A DNA stretch of 64,000 nucleotides from Rhodopseudomonas palustris (GTDB taxonomy: Bacteria > Pseudomonadota > Alphaproteobacteria > Rhizobiales > Xanthobacteraceae), in contig JACRJB010000014.1 of assembly GCA_016215605.1 (NCBI GenBank), positions 124,001 to 188,000 on the forward strand, read 5' to 3'. The first letter of the stretch is position 1; the number at the start of each line of letters is the position of its first letter. Both the position numbers and the translations under genes were made by a program. Under the pieces are notes generated by a model. That model was not told where the DNA came from, did no database searches, and saw only the letters and a list, made by a program, of their open reading frames with translations. This document shows, in pieces, positions 3,531-51,124 of the stretch.

Positions 3531-5057
3531 TCACGCGTCCGCCTTCTCCCGCGCGAGAAACCGTTCGCGCAGTGTCGGCTTGTGTACCTTGCCGGTGGCG
3601 TTGCGGGGCAGGGCTTCGACGAAGATCACGCGCTGCGGGCATTTGAAGCGGGCCAGCCGCTCGCGGCAATGCGCGTGCAGCGTCGTCTCGGCCAGCTCGT
3701 GGCCGCTCTTCACCGCGACGATCGCGACGCCGGTCTCGCCCCATTGCGGGTCCGGCTGACCGATCACCGCGGCCTCGGCGATTTCCGGCAACTGATACAA
3801 CACGTCCTCGACCTCGGCCGGATAGACGTTCTCGCCGCCCGAGATGTACATGTCCTTGGTGCGATCGACGATGTAGTAGAAGCCTTCGTCGTCGACGCGC
3901 GCCGCATCGCCGGTGTGTAGCCAGCCGTCGGTGAAGCTGGTGCGGTTGGCGTCGGGACGATTCCAATAACCGGGCGTGATGTTCGGGCCCTTCACCCAGA
4001 GTTCGCCCATCTCGCCGGGCGCGACCGTCTCGCCGTCCGGCCCGACGATCTTCAGCTCCGCGTGCAGCACCGGCTTGCCGGCCGAGCCGGCTTTGCGCGC
4101 GGCGTCGTCGGCGTCGAGCATCAGCACGGCCGGGCTGGTCTCGGTCATGCCGTAGCCCTGCATCAGCACGCAGCCGCGGTCCTGCCAGATCTTCAGCAGC
4201 GGCACCGGCATCGGCGCGCCGCCGACGCCGGCGACCTGCAGCCGCGACAAATCGGTAGCGGCGAAGGCCGGGTGCTGGCACATGAACTGATAGATCGACG
4301 GCACGCCGAAGAAATGCGTCAGGCCGATACTTGCATCGCCGATCAGCCGCAGCGTTTCGGCGGGATCGAACGCACGCATCAGCATCACCGTGCCGCCGGC
4401 GTGCAGCACCGGGTTGGTGTAGCAGTTCAGCCCGCCGGTGTGGAACAGCGGCATCACGCAGAGAAACACCGTTCGCTGCGAGATGAAGGTCGGGATGCCG
4501 AGATTGACCGCGTTGATGAAGGTCATGCCATGGGTGATCATGGCGCCCTTGGGTTTGCCGGTGGTGCCCGACGTGTACATGATGGTCGAGACGTCATCGA
4601 GCGTCACGGCTTCGGTGCGGCCGAGCCGCGGCGCGGCGTCGATCGCCGCTTCGTACGGCGCGCCGAACTGCAGCAGATGCGGGACGCTGCATTGGCCCTG
4701 AAGCTCGCCGGACATCGCGGCGAAGTCGTTGTCGTGCGCCAGCACGCGCGGCGCGGCGTCGCCGACGATGAAGGCGAGTTCGTGTACCGTCAGCCGCACG
4801 TTCAGCGGCACGAAGATCGCCCCGAGCCGGAAGCAGGCGAACTGCACTTCGAGCGTGTCGGTGGTGTTGGCGGCCAGCACCGCGACGCGGTCGCCGCGGC
4901 CGACGCCGAGCGTGTCGAGGTGTGAGGCCAGCCGATCGATCCGGTCGTCGAGCGCCCGGTAGGTCAGCCGGCGCTGGGTGGCGAGATCGACCACCGCGAG
5001 CCGGTCGGGTCGAACTTCGGCGTGGTGGGTGATCCAGTCGAAGTAACCAAAGCTCAT
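3531..5057 (-). CDS. Acyl-CoA synthetase (AMP-forming)
   Basis: This ANL-superfamily ligase activates a carboxylic acid as its CoA thioester by way of an acyl-adenylate. Visible motifs are the P-loop YTSGTTGKPKGAM, YGMTETSP, the hinge region GWLHTGD...YYIVDRTKD and the C-terminal catalytic lysine in NATGKVHKPTL. The start at 5057 gives 508 residues beginning MSFGYFDW and has a strong GGGGGAGGA ribosome site; the frame stays open upstream but that part lacks family features. It is convergent with the beta-oxidation genes and probably supplies their CoA substrate. The chain length or ring type accepted cannot be read from the sequence. Confidence 0.9.
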   Translation of the reverse strand: MSFGYFDWITHHAEVRPDRLAVVDLATQRRLTYRALDDRIDRLASHLDTLGVGRGDRVAVLAANTTDTLEVQFACFRLGAIFVPLNVRLTVHELAFIVGDAAPRVLAHDNDFAAMSGELQGQCSVPHLLQFGAPYEAAIDAAPRLGRTEAVTLDDVSTIMYTSGTTGKPKGAMITHGMTFINAVNLGIPTFISQRTVFLCVMPLFHTGGLNCYTNPVLHAGGTVMLMRAFDPAETLRLIGDASIGLTHFFGVPSIYQFMCQHPAFAATDLSRLQVAGVGGAPMPVPLLKIWQDRGCVLMQGYGMTETSPAVLMLDADDAARKAGSAGKPVLHAELKIVGPDGETVAPGEMGELWVKGPNITPGYWNRPDANRTSFTDGWLHTGDAARVDDEGFYYIVDRTKDMYISGGENVYPAEVEDVLYQLPEIAEAAVIGQPDPQWGETGVAIVAVKSGHELAETTLHAHCRERLARFKCPQRVIFVEALPRNATGKVHKPTLRERFLAREKADA

Positions 5058-45333: not shown

Positions 45334-47661
45334 TTACAACGGAATTCGAGCGAACAGAGCGGTGCCCTGGCCGGGCGCGGATTCGATTTCGAGCGAGCCG
45401 CGGACCAGCGTCAGCCGCTCGCGGATGCCGAGCAGGCCGAGCCGCTCGGGCGGACGATCGGCGTCGGGATTGACGAAGCCACGGCCGTCGTCTTCGACCA
45501 CCATCGTCACCTGCTGGTCCGACAGCCGCAGGATGACGCTGACATGGGTCGCGGCGGCGTGGCGGACGATGTTGGTCAGAGCTTCCTGCAGCACGCGATA
45601 CAGCGTGGTCTCGATCGCCGGCGCCAGCCGGCGGTCGCCGAGCGACATGTGCAGATCGAACTGCACCTGCGCGGTCTCGCTCCAGGCGTCGAGCAGATGC
45701 TGGATCGCGGTCTGGATGCCGAGATCGTCGAGCGCGGTCGGCCGGATCTCCCACGCCAGCCGGTTGACCTGCTGGCCGATGTCGGCGGTGAGGCTGCGCA
45801 TGCCGCCGATGCGGCTCTGCAGTTCGCCGTTGTCGGGCGCGACCTGGGCGAGATTTTCGAAGCCGAGCTGCAGCAGCGTCAGCGATTGGCCGAGCGTGTC
45901 GTGGAGTTCGCGCGCGATCCGCAGCCGTTCGGCTTCCTGATCTTCGACCGTCCGGCGCAGCACCTGCGACAGGTCGGCTTCGACCGAGACGCGCCGGCGG
46001 GTCTCCTCTTGCAATGTCTGCGCGACGTCGTGCGACCGGCGTAGCCCGAGTTCGACTTCCCGCATCAACTGTTCCTGCAGCAGCCGTGCCGACCGCCGCT
46101 CGCGGGCGATGCCGTCGATCCGCCGCAGCACCACTTCGAGCAGCGACAGCCGCAGCCGGTGCGCGGCTTCGATCTCGGAGCTGCGCCACGGCTCGGCATG
46201 CAGCCGCACCGATTCCTGCCACGCGGCGAAGCTGCGGCGCGGCGTCAGAAATTCGCCGCCGGCGCCGACGCTGACCGGCTTGTTGGGATTGCCGGCCCAG
46301 GTCACGGTGCGGACCACTTCGGGCCGAAACCACAGCACGTAGTCGCGCGGCGACTTCGACAGCGACAGCGCGAGCAGGCCGCTGGCGCTGTCGGCGAAGG
46401 CTTTCGCCGGCGGATAGATCAGCGGCAGGCCGTCGGTGTGGAACACACCGTCATTGGCGGTGGCCGTCAGCCAGCCGATCAGCGCTTCGGTCTGCGCCGC
46501 ATCGGGCGTGATCCCGAGACCGGTGAACTGGCCGTCGATCCACAGCGCCACCCCGGTCGCCGGAATGAAGTCGAGCAGATTGGGATGAAACCGGATCAGG
46601 CCTTCGGCGAGATCGGATTCCTGGCTCATCCGCGTCACCAGCTCTTCGTGGATCCGCGTACTGCGCAGCCGCGCCTCGAGCTGTTCGGCGGCGACCTTGG
46701 CCTCGAGTTGTGACGACGCCATCTCGGCGAACAGCTCGCACGCCTCGCGCATCCGATAGGGCAGAGAGCGCGGCGAGCTGTGATGGCACGCGATCAGGCC
46801 CCACAGCCGGCCGTGCTGAATGATCGACAGCGACATCGACGCCACCACGCCCATATGCGCGAGATACAGCCGGTGCGCCGGCGACACGCTGCGGATCACG
46901 CTCTGGCTGAGATCGAGCGGCAGGCCGCTGTGCGGATCGACCGCCGGCAGGATCGGCGCCGGCGCGTAGCGGGCGTCCGGGATCGCGCGGATCCAGTTGG
47001 TGAGATACAGCGCGCGCGCCTGCTTGGGGATGTCGGATTCCGGATAGCGCAGTCCGAGAAAGCTCTCGATGCCGGGCGCGCGCGACTCGGCCTTCACCTC
47101 GCCGCTGCCGTCCGCCGTGAAGCGGTAGATCATCACCCGCTCGAAACCGGTGACGGCGCGCACCTCGGCGGCGACCGCTTCGCAGAACGCCTGCACCGTC
47201 TCGGCGCGCCGCACATGGCGGATCATCGACTGCACCAGCGCCAGCGAATTCTCCGGCGCCGGCTCGCGGCGCGGATCCAGTTCCAGCACCAGCAGCCCCG
47301 AAGCCTGATGCACCACCACGTCGACCGGCGTGCCGTCGGGGGCGGTCAACGCGAAAGCATGCAGCGGCCGCTCGATCTTGCGATCGGGGCCGAGCAAGGC
47401 ACGCAGCCGCGCGATCTGGTCGGCGGAGAAGATCCCGGTGACGCAGCGGCCCGGCAGCGATCCGGCCGGCGCACCCAGCAGCGCAGCGCTGTCGCCACCG
47501 GCGTGGACGACGCGCAGATCATCCGGAGCCAGCGCCAGCAGGGCGCCATGCGGCTGAATCGAACCGGGCAGGTGGATCGCCTCACGGTCGCACCCGGACT
47601 GGCTGGATGCGTCGAAATCGGCGAAAATCAACTCTGCCGAATTGTCAATGCCAGACTGCAT
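45334..47661 (-). CDS. Bacteriophytochrome histidine kinase with biliverdin-binding Cys
   Basis: This red/far-red photoreceptor kinase of 775 residues has PAS-GAF-PHY sensor domains and a HisKA_3/HATPase output. The biliverdin-attachment Cys is present at residue 24 (GCDREAIHLPG). The GAF motif is PESDIP at 207-212, a variant of PASDIP, and the chromophore histidines occur in SPAHRLYL and IACHH. The PHY tongue has PRRSF near 474-478. The H-box RIARELHDTLGQSL (His about 587), N-box LQEALTNIVRH and G-box VEDDGRGF complete a NarX-type kinase. It resembles RpBphP4, which I recall has lost this Cys in strain CGA009. The start is the ATG at 47661; a GTG lies one codon earlier. Confidence 0.94.
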   Translation of the reverse strand: MQSGIDNSAELIFADFDASSQSGCDREAIHLPGSIQPHGALLALAPDDLRVVHAGGDSAALLGAPAGSLPGRCVTGIFSADQIARLRALLGPDRKIERPLHAFALTAPDGTPVDVVVHQASGLLVLELDPRREPAPENSLALVQSMIRHVRRAETVQAFCEAVAAEVRAVTGFERVMIYRFTADGSGEVKAESRAPGIESFLGLRYPESDIPKQARALYLTNWIRAIPDARYAPAPILPAVDPHSGLPLDLSQSVIRSVSPAHRLYLAHMGVVASMSLSIIQHGRLWGLIACHHSSPRSLPYRMREACELFAEMASSQLEAKVAAEQLEARLRSTRIHEELVTRMSQESDLAEGLIRFHPNLLDFIPATGVALWIDGQFTGLGITPDAAQTEALIGWLTATANDGVFHTDGLPLIYPPAKAFADSASGLLALSLSKSPRDYVLWFRPEVVRTVTWAGNPNKPVSVGAGGEFLTPRRSFAAWQESVRLHAEPWRSSEIEAAHRLRLSLLEVVLRRIDGIARERRSARLLQEQLMREVELGLRRSHDVAQTLQEETRRRVSVEADLSQVLRRTVEDQEAERLRIARELHDTLGQSLTLLQLGFENLAQVAPDNGELQSRIGGMRSLTADIGQQVNRLAWEIRPTALDDLGIQTAIQHLLDAWSETAQVQFDLHMSLGDRRLAPAIETTLYRVLQEALTNIVRHAAATHVSVILRLSDQQVTMVVEDDGRGFVNPDADRPPERLGLLGIRERLTLVRGSLEIESAPGQGTALFARIPL

Positions 47662-47712
47662 CACATTCTACTCAATTTTCCGTGTCCGGGAGTCGGCGGA
47701 CCCGTTTGAGGA

Positions 47713-48020: not shown

Positions 48021-48176
48021 ATGGCAGACGATCCGAACAAGGTCTGGCCGACTGGCCTGACGATCGCGGAATCGGAAGAGCTCCACAAGCACGTCATCGA
48101 CGGTACGCGCATCTTCGGCGCGATCGCGATCGTTGCGCACTTCCTGGCGTATGTTTACTCGCCCTGGCTGCACTAA
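48021..48176 (+). CDS. pucB: Light-harvesting 2 beta subunit
   Basis: This 51-residue antenna polypeptide has a polar N terminus, one membrane helix and the bacteriochlorophyll-ligating His in [18 protein letters not shown]; a second His in ELHKHVIDG sits in the region that contacts B800 in LH2. AGGAGG at 48007-48012 lies 8 bases before the ATG. pucA follows after 12 bases. The sequence is close to remembered R. palustris PucB proteins. Confidence 0.97.
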
Positions 48177-48188
48177 GGAGTATCTCAG

Positions 48189-48368
48189 ATGAATCAAGGT
48201 CGCATTTGGACTGTCGTGAAGCCGACCGTCGGCCTGCCGCTCCTGCTCGGCAGCGTCACCGTGATCGCCCTCCTCGTTCACTACGCCGTGCTGTCGCACA
48301 CCACCTGGTTCCCGAAGTACTGGAACGGTAAGACTGCGGCGATCGAGAGCTCGGTCACCATCGGCTGA
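48189..48368 (+). CDS. pucA: Light-harvesting 2 alpha subunit
   Basis: This 59-residue antenna polypeptide begins [17 protein letters not shown], has one membrane helix with the B850 ligand His in LLVHYAVL, and continues [12 protein letters not shown]. The Tyr-Trp pair after the helix, which tunes B850 in LH2 and is replaced in the blue-shifted LH3 and LH4 types, is retained, so a B800-850 complex is predicted. The ribosome site AAGGAG overlaps the pucB stop codon. Confidence 0.97.
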
Positions 48369-48554: not shown

Positions 48555-49982
48555 ATGAACACAGTCAGCCGAAATATGATGAAAGTCTGGGCCTCGCTTG
48601 GCCCGCGCTTTTTGCCTTTCGCGGATGCGGCGACGCCGGATCTGCCGCTGTCGCGGTTGTTGCGGCTGTCGCTGTTTCAGGTCGCGGTCGGCATGTCGCT
48701 GGTGCTGCTGGTCGGCACCTTGAACCGCGTGATGATCGTCGAGCTCAGCGTGCCGGCGTCGATCGTCGGCGTGATGGTCTCGCTGCCTTTGATCTTTGCG
48801 CCGTTCCGGGCGCTGATCGGCTTCAAATCCGACGTCCACAAATCGGTGCTGGGCTGGCGCCGCGTCCCGTTCCTGTACAAGGGCACGCTGGTGCAGTTCG
48901 GCGGCCTGGCGATCCTGCCGTTCGCACTGCTGGTGCTGTCCGGCGGCGGCGAGGCCGGCCATGCGCCGGTGTGGATCGGACAGTTCGGCGCGGCCCTCGC
49001 ATTCCTGCTGATCGGCGCCGGCGTCCACACCACCCAGACCGTCGGCCTCGCGCTCGCCACCGACCTCGCCTCGCCGGAGTCGCGGCCGAAGGTGGTCGGC
49101 CTGATGTACACCATGCTGATGTTCGGCATGATCGCCGCGGCGATCATCTTCGGCATTCTGCTCGCCGACTTCTCGCCCGGCCGGCTGATCCAGGTGATCC
49201 AGGGCTCGGCCGTGGTCACCATCGTGCTCAACGGCATCGCGGTCTGGAAGCAGGAAGCCCGGCGCAGCTCGGGCGCCACCCAGGCGACCGCGCATCCCGG
49301 CGCGCCGCAGGCCAGCTTCCGCGAGTCCTGGGACGTCTTCATCCAGGGCGACAACGCGCTGCGCCGGCTGATCGCGGTCGGTTTCGGCACCATGGCGTTC
49401 AGCATGGAAGACGTGCTGCTCGAACCTTACGGCGGCCAGATCCTGCATCTGTCGGTCGGCGACACCACCAAGCTCACCGCCGCGCTCGCGGTCGGCGGCC
49501 TGCTCGGCTTCGGCCTCGCCTCGCGGGTGCTGAGCCGCGGCGCCGATCCGTTCCGGATGGCGAGCGCCGGCGCGCTGGTCGGGATCCCGGCGTTCCTGGC
49601 GGTGATCTTCGCCGCCGAACTGCACGGCGCGGCCTCGGCGCTGACCTTCGGCTGCGGCACGCTGCTGATCGGCTTCGGCGCCGGCCTGTTCGGCCACGGC
49701 ACGCTGACCGCCACCATGAACGCCGCGCCGAAGGATCAGGCCGGCCTCGCGCTCGGCGCCTGGGGCGCGGTGCAGGCCTCGGCGGCCGGCGTCGCGATCG
49801 CGCTCGGCGGCATCCTGCGCGACGTGGTGAGCGCGCTCGCCCCGCAGCTCGGCCCGGCCGCCGGCTACAATGTCGTGTACGGCGTCGAGCTGGTGCTGCT
49901 GCTCGCGACGCTGGTGACGATGGTCCCGCTGATCAGGCGACGGGACACCCTACTGATGCAGGGCCAGCCCTCGCGGCCCTGA
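48555..49982 (+). CDS. pucC: PucC-family light-harvesting assembly/pigment transporter protein
   Basis: This major-facilitator-like membrane protein of 475 residues belongs to the PucC/LhaA/bch2 group needed for LH assembly. About twelve hydrophobic segments are visible. Family sequences include GTLNRVMIVELSVPASIVG, LIGFKSDVHKSVLGWRRVPF, LATDLASPESRPKVVGLMYT and FSMEDVLLEPYGGQIL. It lies 186 bases after pucA on the same strand, and the repeat protein gene follows after 18 bases. It is probably the dedicated assembly factor for this pucBA pair. Confidence 0.95.
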   Translation: MNTVSRNMMKVWASLGPRFLPFADAATPDLPLSRLLRLSLFQVAVGMSLVLLVGTLNRVMIVELSVPASIVGVMVSLPLIFAPFRALIGFKSDVHKSVLGWRRVPFLYKGTLVQFGGLAILPFALLVLSGGGEAGHAPVWIGQFGAALAFLLIGAGVHTTQTVGLALATDLASPESRPKVVGLMYTMLMFGMIAAAIIFGILLADFSPGRLIQVIQGSAVVTIVLNGIAVWKQEARRSSGATQATAHPGAPQASFRESWDVFIQGDNALRRLIAVGFGTMAFSMEDVLLEPYGGQILHLSVGDTTKLTAALAVGGLLGFGLASRVLSRGADPFRMASAGALVGIPAFLAVIFAAELHGAASALTFGCGTLLIGFGAGLFGHGTLTATMNAAPKDQAGLALGAWGAVQASAAGVAIALGGILRDVVSALAPQLGPAAGYNVVYGVELVLLLATLVTMVPLIRRRDTLLMQGQPSRP

Positions 49983-50000: not shown

Positions 50001-50663
50001 ATGACGCAAATCATCACCCGGTTGTACGATTCCAGCAGCAAGCTCGCTGCGCTGGAAGCCGACCTGAAGAAGAGCAACTACACCTATTCGGTCGTCACCG
50101 GCTATCAGGCGGGCAAGGCCAGCTCGGTCGACGACATCGTCGCGGCGATGGGCAAGGCCTATGTGTCGCGCGGCGACGCCCGGACCTATGCGGACTACGT
50201 CAAGAAGGGCGCCGTCGTGGTCGCGGTGCAGGCCGAGTTCGGCTTCGCCGCCAAGGCCGAGGCGATCCTCGACAGCTACGGCCCGAACAAGATCAGCGTG
50301 CAATCGTCGTCGTCCTCGGCGCTCGAGATGAGCGAGGCGACGCCGTTCTCGAACATGATCCACGCCAGGGCGCTGCTCGACACCTCGGGCAAGTACAAAT
50401 CCTATTCCGGCGACTGGCTGCTCGTCGACAGCGACAAGACGTTCTCCGGAACGCCGCTGGTGATCAGCAGCAAGGGCCCGTACCAGTCGTTCTCCGGAAC
50501 GCCGCTGCTGCTCGACAGAAGCGGCCCCTACAAGTCCTTTTCCGGGACTCCTCTGTTGCTGGACACCAGCGGCCCGTACAAATCCTATTCGGGCGAGCCG
50601 CTGTTGCTCAACAATCCGACCATCTTCTCCTCCTGGCTGGGCCTGCCAGTGCTCTCCAAGTAA
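50001..50663 (+). CDS. Unrecognised protein: GSP17M-like domain plus SGTPLLL repeats
   Basis: I do not know a named family for this 220-residue protein. Residues 1-95 form an alpha/beta domain (RLYDSSSKLAALEADLKK, GAVVVAVQAEFGFAAKAEAI) like the GSP17M/DUF1269-type ferredoxin-like fold. After a Ser-rich linker (101-106), residues 131-202 hold four to five copies of a roughly 16-residue unit such as YQSFSGTPLLLDRSGP and YKSFSGTPLLLDTSGP, and the end (IFSSWLGLPVLSK) is a decayed copy. No signal peptide or membrane helix is seen. GGAG precedes the ATG 18 bases after pucC, so it belongs to the LH2 operon. A role in antenna assembly or surface packing is inference. Confidence 0.85.
   Translation: MTQIITRLYDSSSKLAALEADLKKSNYTYSVVTGYQAGKASSVDDIVAAMGKAYVSRGDARTYADYVKKGAVVVAVQAEFGFAAKAEAILDSYGPNKISVQSSSSSALEMSEATPFSNMIHARALLDTSGKYKSYSGDWLLVDSDKTFSGTPLVISSKGPYQSFSGTPLLLDRSGPYKSFSGTPLLLDTSGPYKSYSGEPLLLNNPTIFSSWLGLPVLSK
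50391..50606 (+). repeat. Tandem coding repeats in the first repeat protein
   Basis: These bases encode four to five units of roughly 16 residues, with consensus Y-[KQ]-S-[FY]-S-G-[TE]-P-L-L-L-D-x-S-G-P. One unit is shortened at TFSGTPLV. The DNA copies are less alike than in the next gene. Confidence 0.85.
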
Positions 50664-50676
50664 AAGGAATTTGACC

Positions 50677-50967
50677 ATGAGCGACTACAAAGGACACTCC
50701 GGTACTCCGCTGATTCTCGAACAGAAGGGCGAGTACGAAGGCTATTCCGGCACGCCGCTGCTGCTGAAGCAGGACGGCGAATACAAGAGCTTCTCCGGCA
50801 CGCCGCTGATCCTCGAGCAGAAGGGCGAGTACCAGAGCTTCTCGGGCACCCCGCTGCTGCTGAAGCAGGAGGGCGAGTACCAGTCGTTCTCCGGCACGCC
50901 GCTGCTGCTCAAGCAGGACGGCGAATACAAGTCCTTCTCCGGCTATCCGCTGCTGCTCAACTTCTGA
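50677..50967 (+). CDS. Unrecognised protein built only of 16-residue SGTPLLL repeats
   Basis: The 96-residue protein is MSD followed by five complete units of exactly 16 residues and a final partial one. Examples are YEGYSGTPLLLKQDGE and YQSFSGTPLLLKQEGE; the end is YKSFSGYPLLLNF. Every unit has S-G-T/Y-P-L-[LI]-L, an acidic-Gly turn and an aromatic pair, a pattern suited to a beta-strand/turn solenoid or stacked hairpins. There is no signal or membrane segment. AAGGA lies 8 bases before the ATG at 50677. It follows its larger relative by 13 bases, and a strong terminator ends the operon. Function unknown; partnership with the previous protein through like repeats is plausible. Confidence 0.88.
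   Translation: MSDYKGHSGTPLILEQKGEYEGYSGTPLLLKQDGEYKSFSGTPLILEQKGEYQSFSGTPLLLKQEGEYQSFSGTPLLLKQDGEYKSFSGYPLLLNF
50686..50964 (+). repeat. 48-base tandem coding repeats
   Basis: Five units of 48 bases plus one of 39 encode the 16-residue protein repeats. Units alternate between LILEQKGE and LLLKQDGE/LLLKQEGE endings in the first four, which suggests duplication of a 96-base pair of units. Confidence 0.9.
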
Positions 50968-50993
50968 GCCGACCGCGACTTCAGGCCACAATG

Positions 50994-51023
50994 CGCCGCG
51001 GGCAGCAATGCCCGCGGCGTTTT
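50994..51023 (+). terminator. Strong rho-independent terminator of the LH2 operon
   Basis: A perfect 10-pair stem (CGCCGCGGGC with GCCCGCGGCG), loop AGCAAT and a TTTT run lie 27 bases after the last repeat-protein gene. Confidence 0.92.
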
Positions 51024-51124
51024 GCGTGTCGGCCCGCTTCCCGATCCGTCGCAAGAAAATGCTGGGCAAAGCGCGGCGCAGGCGTCAATCTGGTTCCAAC
51101 GACAAAAGAAACGTCCGAGGAAAC

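Follow-up and report, generated by a model that had tools for sequence, protein, structure and literature searches.

The window analysed here, a stretch of 64,000 nucleotides from Rhodopseudomonas palustris, carries a puc operon whose last two genes encode repeat proteins. Judged by its sequence, the larger of the two (220 aa) is a paralogue of LH2-gamma, consisting of a compact YflT-like N-terminal domain and a tail of seven gamma-like units, two of which are end caps assigned by eye. Proteins with such a belt-like tail make up a family that has apparently not been described before and whose genes are found beside antenna genes in several alphaproteobacterial families. Across the Alphaproteobacteria, this family goes with one kind of LH2 operon, in most cases one that includes pucC, and the larger protein is very probably dedicated to LH2. 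The best overall explanation, to which we give a probability of roughly 0.55, is that it acts as a partner in LH2 assembly or pigment loading and docks at the rim of the ring in a gamma-like manner, with gamma being a derived copy of its tail.

The puc operon and LH2-gamma

The operon starts with pucB (48021-48176; LH2 beta polypeptide of 51 aa; PF00556 LHC, 9.4e-10) and pucA (48189-48368; LH2 alpha polypeptide of 59 aa, MNQGRIW type with Tyr44-Trp45; PF00556 LHC, 2.8e-14), followed by pucC (48555-49982), which encodes an MFS-type LH2 assembly factor of 475 aa (PF03209 PUCC, 6e-150). The open reading frames (ORFs) of the bipartite 220-aa protein, with its N-domain and gamma-like tail (50001-50663), and of a 96-aa protein with six SG units (50677-50967) lie downstream; all five genes are on the plus strand. 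The TGA of pucC ends at 49982, leaving a gap of 18 bases to the ATG at 50001, and the TAA of the 220-aa ORF ends at 50663, leaving 13 bases to the ATG at 50677; the TGA of the 96-aa ORF ends at 50967. The coordinates and the PF00556 and PF03209 matches thus confirm the preliminary description, in which two adjacent genes follow pucB-pucA-pucC on the same strand. The strong terminator that it had placed behind them corresponds to a GC-rich, terminator-like hairpin at 50993-51020 (plus strand), which has 12 predicted pairs and whose last paired base is the first U of a UUUU run. For the 44 bases from 50985 to 51028, the folding energy is -30.3 kcal/mol (z -4.85), and 0 of 200 shuffles were as good; the output of a consensus terminator scanner did not contain the hairpin. 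Comparisons with relatives yielded dN/dS values of 0.19-0.30 for the 220-aa ORF (five comparisons, whole length) and of 0.13-0.32 for the 96-aa ORF (three comparisons).

The neighbour of the operon is a divergently transcribed gene for a bacteriophytochrome histidine kinase (45334-47664, minus strand; PHY/PAS_2/GAF/HisKA_3/HATPase_c), in which a Cys close to the N-terminus (SGCDREAIHLPG) is retained. This Cys is missing from certain BphP4 proteins of R. palustris.

The preliminary description named no family for the repeat, but it does have a known one. In a search of all PDB chain sequences, the 96-aa protein matched chain S of 7zcu, named 'PucA-LH2-gamma', with an E-value of 9e-50 (phmmer, 170 bits), residues 2-95 of the query aligning with residues 3-96 of the chain; an unknown repeat family was rejected on account of this match. 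The homology extends over the full length, and all six repeats have a Ser before the Gly. The gene at 50677-50967 almost certainly encodes the already known LH2-gamma subunit (RPA1495/Q6N9P5). According to the excerpts available of the cryo-EM study (PMC9618040; Qian 2022), gamma is a ribbon that runs along the outside of LH2 at its cytoplasmic side and wraps six of the nine alpha-beta pairs, each of the six repeat serines ligating one bacteriochlorophyll (BChl). Ring attachment and ligation of six BChl are known for this homologue in PMC9618040 only and would apply to the 96-aa protein by analogy. Q6N9P5 was independently detected by mass spectrometry with low-light (LL) LH2, as stated in an excerpt of PMC9897067.

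In genome G004, the gamma protein (locus L018) is letter-for-letter identical to Q6N9P5 as printed in PMC9897067; the 216-aa protein encoded upstream of it should therefore be RPA1494, a number that we infer from this identity. The excerpts of the two gamma accounts, PMC9618040 and PMC9897067, do not mention the upstream neighbour of RPA1495. A full-text search of open PMC papers found no paper on RPA1494, and the listings obtained from literature searches in open PMC show nothing on the bipartite protein. The genome of the window (G000) contains three more pucBA pairs on contigs C38, C52 and C78, distant from the sole SG-type gamma/bipartite locus found, so gamma would need to act in trans on other LH2 types. 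Such an action is suggested by the four LH2 structures of R. palustris, as far as the available excerpts describe them.

A YflT-like domain with a gamma-like tail

The gamma-like tail of the 220-aa protein (50340-50660, plus strand) comprises five SG units flanked by two caps, PFSNMIHARALL on the N-terminal and FSSWLGLPVL on the C-terminal side, and matches 7zcu_S with an E-value of 1.3e-28 by phmmer, the best stretch covering 59 residues. Units were defined by the regular expression SGx[PLVWM][LVIM][LIVM], which finds five in the 220-aa and six in the 96-aa protein, whereas composition shuffles (20000 each) never contained more than two. The spacing is 16 residues with one exception of 13 in the 220-aa protein; the unit of nearly 16 residues common to both proteins, as noticed in the preliminary description, is confirmed. 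The end caps, PFSNMIH..LL and FSSWLGLPVL, were assigned by eye and are without Ser-Gly; counting them, there are seven units. The 220-aa protein is homologous to gamma in its tail; instead of six Ser-Gly units it possesses five and two caps, and instead of being a small all-repeat chain of about 97 aa it has 220 aa, including a predicted domain of 100 aa.

The number of units is constant for each protein type (five, six or eight, with one exception), although the spacing varies between 13, 15 and 16 residues. Five Ser-Gly units are present in 22 of 23 distinct near bipartite ORFs by regular expression; in the 23rd (L065), four were found in this way and a fifth, SGDMLL, by eye. Six units are found in 20 of 21 gamma ORFs, the exception being a protein in L022 with four, and eight in all four members of a third type of 145 aa (regular expression). 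This third protein consists of eight Ser-Gly units and a cap and is encoded downstream of gamma (L071, 5665-6102; L072, 3573-4010; L074, 3077-3514; L082, 225-662); in L082, it lies behind a gamma fragment that is cut by the contig start. The pucA genes in operons of the 145-aa protein encode Tyr44-Met45 (L071) or Phe44-Met45 (L072, L074). L072 also contains a shortened gamma with four units (4066-4272); elsewhere in this genome (G008), a gamma with all six units is intact (L073, 1470-1766).

Residues 1-100 of the 220-aa protein (50001-50300, plus strand) form the N-domain. AlphaFold2, supplied with 14 rows (the window and related-locus sequences), predicts a compact alpha/beta domain with the order strand, helix, strand, helix, helix, strand, helix and a pLDDT of 72-88 per ten-residue block; for the tail, folded alone, no structure is predicted (pLDDT about 34). 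Homology to YflT/GSP17M-type proteins was found at the profile level: hhalign of the N-domain profile against six GSP17M/YflT-type proteins gave a probability of 97.6 and an E-value of 2.8e-12. The alignment skips the glycine-zipper part, and the membrane segment of the YflT-type stress proteins is thus absent from it. The domain stays below the Pfam gathering cut-off of YflT (PF11181), with zero families assigned to the window protein, and PF11181 matches two of the 17 members of the wide family profile (A3) at E<=0.1, the best at 0.0014. The 220-aa protein has neither a Pfam nor an NCBIfam match at E<=1. The repeats gave weak Pfam matches (DUF3823, zinc finger, crystallin and others), which were all under their own cut-offs and were discarded. 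A Foldseek search of the AlphaFold2 model against the PDB found nothing at E<=0.001; the best matches, NDP kinases with an E-value of only 0.029, hint at a ferredoxin-like fold and no more, and an enzyme identity is not claimed.

The window's own genome contains two paralogues of the bipartite protein on contigs without LHC matches (L004, 1489-2004, on contig C34; and C17, 88171-88641). The L004 paralogue has no SGTPLLL units, while the N-domain and a PFSSMLGLPVL end are present. Proteins of other genomes (L085, L086) possess a single FFSGFPLL unit and are possible intermediates.

Distribution of the bipartite family

Within the genus sample, 16 of 16 genomes match one of the two queries, and the full-length bipartite protein is encoded in 15 of them; in G012, contig ends interrupt the locus. 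Among the 218 genomes of the family sample, the 220-aa query matches 19, of which 18 belong to the 32 LHC-positive genomes; the exception, G054, has a weak YflT-type match (6.9e-4). Fourteen of the 18 belong to the window's own genus and are not independent, and the remaining four are G020, G060, G064 and G150. Named genome contigs, scanned with one peptide pattern only, contained 14 loci, all of them in Rhodopseudomonas. For SG-type repeats, the family and named-contig results agree with the excerpts of PMC9618040, in which gamma was confined to Rhodopseudomonas by BLASTp. A 212-aa variant of the bipartite protein is encoded in G006 between two pucBA pairs, whose beta chains are identical to P35109 (beta d) and P35108 (beta c) as given in PMC9897067. 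Its orthologue, as suggested by synteny, would be rpa3011, a hypothetical gene beside pucBAd and one of seven genes that at least 14 of 17 strains express more strongly in low light (excerpt of PMC6879726). In a full-text search of open PMC papers, rpa3011 was found in PMC6879726 alone.

The distant relative in G150 is encoded beside a puc operon, yet no reaction centre was found in that genome. The locus (L079, 3832-9252; C1:1840000-1850000) comprises a bacteriophytochrome gene, pucB-pucA-pucC and the bipartite-like gene. The assembly consists of one contig rated 100% complete, has only two LHC matches and gave no match to reaction-centre (PF00124) or PCP_red (PF08369) profiles; it is apparently a non-phototrophic genome with an orphan LH2 operon, although a plasmid may be missing.

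For the class level, 385 alphaproteobacterial genomes were searched with a profile of 19 near sequences (A1), which matched 29 of them. Besides the window's own, loci were inspected in 14 of these genomes and the other 14 were judged by match coordinates (query residues 4-126); ten of the inspected loci encode a protein with N-domain and tail beside pucBA, and four encode GSP17M proteins without a tail. The wide profile A3, built from 17 rows, gave a clean separation, with 11 genomes matched at E<=6e-39, the next at 5.8e-8 and 27 genomes in all at E<=0.01. LHC genes are present in 27 of the 385 genomes, and all 11 genomes with a strong A3 match are LHC-positive (Fisher p 2e-14); A3 was built from sequences that it then scores, which had first been found by A1 without the use of LHC data. 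Homologues widespread in non-phototrophs without puc genes, which the preliminary description had named as speaking against a role with LH2, were looked for in the same 385 genomes, and none of the 358 LHC-negative ones gave a strong match. Sixteen genomes have weak matches (E 5.8e-8 to 0.01), three of them being LHC-positive (G502, G553, G567).

In all ten carriers outside the window genome, the bipartite gene lies within about 0.5 kb of an LHC match; the distance is about 520 bases in G315, compared to about 140-200 in the other nine. The gene is located downstream of pucA on the same strand in eight of the ten, and on the opposite strand in G318 and G315. pucC is present in nine of the ten fetched stretches; that of G318, which is cut by the contig, has none. 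The adjoining alpha chain starts with MNQGR[IL]W in nine carriers and is not MNQGRIW-like in G315. The bipartite gene occurs in 10 of 11 genomes with at least four LHC matches, compared to one of 16 with two matches (G318). G347 has four LHC matches and pucBAC, but no bipartite gene, and the LH2 loci fetched from G347 and from five genomes of genus g10, which encode other alpha-chain types, did not match A3 at E<=1. A tblastn search of plasmids with two distant members gave no match. The bipartite family is thus found beside LHC pairs in several families of the class and is missing from the examined LH2 loci that encode two other types of antenna. Gamma may accordingly have branched off, in Rhodopseudomonas, from a bipartite family that is older and linked to LH2.

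Tails of distant members were counted by eye and contain seven units in L150, L151, L155 and L159 and five or six in L079, L149, L152 and L160; L153, L154 and L156 were outside the count. The distant units mostly follow the pattern S-S-h-(h)-G-h-P-h-L. Among 54 regular-expression units in 11 distant proteins, the residue before the Gly is hydrophobic in 49 and Ser in one, which makes pigment binding by the distant tails doubtful and suggests that the ligand serine is a derived feature of Rhodopseudomonas. In searches of the PDB, gamma was the only significant match of profile A3 (E 2.5e-20), a result that is not independent because A3 includes Rhodopseudomonas rows. When distant proteins were used singly, one of five found gamma (L155, E 0.006) and the other four found none, and a gamma-only profile beat all 550 shuffles for four of 11 distant proteins. 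Taken with moderate confidence, the distant tails are gamma-like.

Proposed role and comparison with known systems

We propose that the bipartite protein, which is encoded right after PucC, would be mainly a partner in LH2 assembly or pigment loading. Its tail would occupy the groove at the cytoplasmic rim in which gamma lies, on LH2 rings that are nascent or mature, and the N-domain would remain in the cytoplasm, where it would work with PucC in assembly or pigment loading; the protein would later be replaced by gamma or share the ring with it. Within Rhodopseudomonas, a copy of the tail would have given rise to gamma by loss of the N-domain; with a ligand serine in every unit, the structural belt would have become an extra antenna. 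Docking of the tail in the manner of gamma is likely, and an assembly role rather than one as a permanent subunit is put forward tentatively, at slightly under even odds. PucC plays an important but non-essential part in the assembly of LH2 in Rhodobacter sphaeroides (excerpt of PMC4949548). Purified LH2 was reported with an extra band around 10 kDa, and no larger one is mentioned in the excerpts of PMC9618040; a 23-kDa partner would therefore not be a major part of purified LH2. Given a gene between or next to pucA and pucC, a ribbon-like tail and a band of about 10 kDa and not of 23 kDa, a transient assembly partner is the simplest reading.

The preliminary description had also proposed that both proteins act with LH2 at the membrane surface. 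For the small one, this stands through the cryo-EM structure of its homologue in the excerpts of PMC9618040; the large one tracks puc loci throughout the class, which fits the proposal without proving it. No support was found for the further idea of an interaction between the two proteins through their shared unit; the known gamma structure suggests, by analogy, a single alpha-beta surface as a possible binding site for either kind of tail.

The main rival, which we consider rather unlikely, is a permanent but sub-stoichiometric belt: an alternative gamma carrying five bacteriochlorophylls on some rings, and the normal belt in other Alphaproteobacteria, the N-domain serving as a spacer or packing element in the cytoplasm. 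The homology of the tail to gamma would be explained, as would the five Ser-Gly units in all 23 near bipartite ORFs (L065 being counted by eye), and rim is free for such a belt, since gamma spans only six of the nine pairs in the excerpts of PMC9618040; some genomes even encode extra tails of eight units. However, the extra band reported for purified LH2 in PMC9618040 was around 10 kDa, and the ligand serine is missing in most distant members.

It is improbable that the YflT-like domain is a stress or redox handle by which the tail-bound protein tunes antenna turnover or quenching under stress. To our knowledge, no function has been established for the YflT domain. The homology of the N-domain to general-stress proteins, a bacteriophytochrome homologue at 11 of 17 near loci and the low-light induction of the gene at the place of rpa3011 (excerpt of PMC6879726) would fit such a handle; however, a bacteriophytochrome was found at 0 of 14 class loci, so that this link is local, the glycine-zipper part is gone, and no redox or catalytic motif was noticed. 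That the bipartite gene is a general stress gene merely located in a puc operon is hardly credible: 13 of the 16 genomes with weak matches are LHC-negative and paralogues without SG units exist away from the puc genes in the window's own genome, but every strong match adjoins LHC genes, all four inspected matches of the weak type are tail-less GSP17M proteins, and the non-puc paralogue, used as query, matched 26 of the 218 family genomes, 17 of them at E<=1.2e-23 (all from genera g1, g6 and g46) and nine at 1.5e-4 or worse.

We regard a broader picture as possible though doubtful. In several alphaproteobacterial families, LH2 rings whose alpha chains are MNQGRIW-like would be built with an as yet unseen, YflT-headed belt protein, whose tail of up to seven units runs round the cytoplasmic rim. 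Rhodopseudomonas gamma would be a pigment-binding offshoot, and the 145-aa protein, with eight Ser-Gly units and a cap (nine in all), would go all the way round a nine-fold ring as its belt, at second puc loci with a Met45 alpha chain.

LH2 is a model antenna, and gamma, a third kind of subunit, was first reported in 2022 and from Rhodopseudomonas only; none is known to have been described for the solved LH2 of Rhodoblastus acidophilus. If a wider family with gamma-like tails is indeed encoded beside pucBA/pucC, belt-like LH2 partners would be common in one LH2 lineage, and the bipartite family would offer a possible evolutionary source of gamma. Tails of 5+2, 6 and 8+1 units also bear on why the length of gamma suffices for only part of the ring, a question left open in the excerpts of PMC9618040.

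Compared with LH2-gamma of R. palustris (RPA1495, Q6N9P5; PDB 7ZCU, 7ZDI, 7ZE3, 7ZE8), the 96-aa protein is alike nearly from end to end, with six units and one Ser-Gly in each. The bipartite tail shares the repeat unit of gamma over its 59-residue best stretch (E 1.3e-28); it differs by the added N-domain, five Ser-Gly units, caps without Ser-Gly and one spacing of 13 residues, and its family ranges beyond Rhodopseudomonas. Relative to the heat-induced YflT/GSP17M stress proteins (PF11181), the N-domain is homologous (profile-profile E 2.8e-12), but it is without the glycine-zipper insertion, falls below the Pfam cut-off and is joined to a gamma-like tail. PucC is encoded in the same operon and may have an assembly role in common with the bipartite protein, but, unlike the latter, it is an MFS-type membrane protein (PF03209, PF07690). 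PucE of Rhodobacter capsulatus is an extra small antenna subunit and is likened here by description only. The same applies to LH1-gamma of Blastochloris viridis, another extra small subunit of a purple-bacterial antenna (excerpt of PMC10212510).
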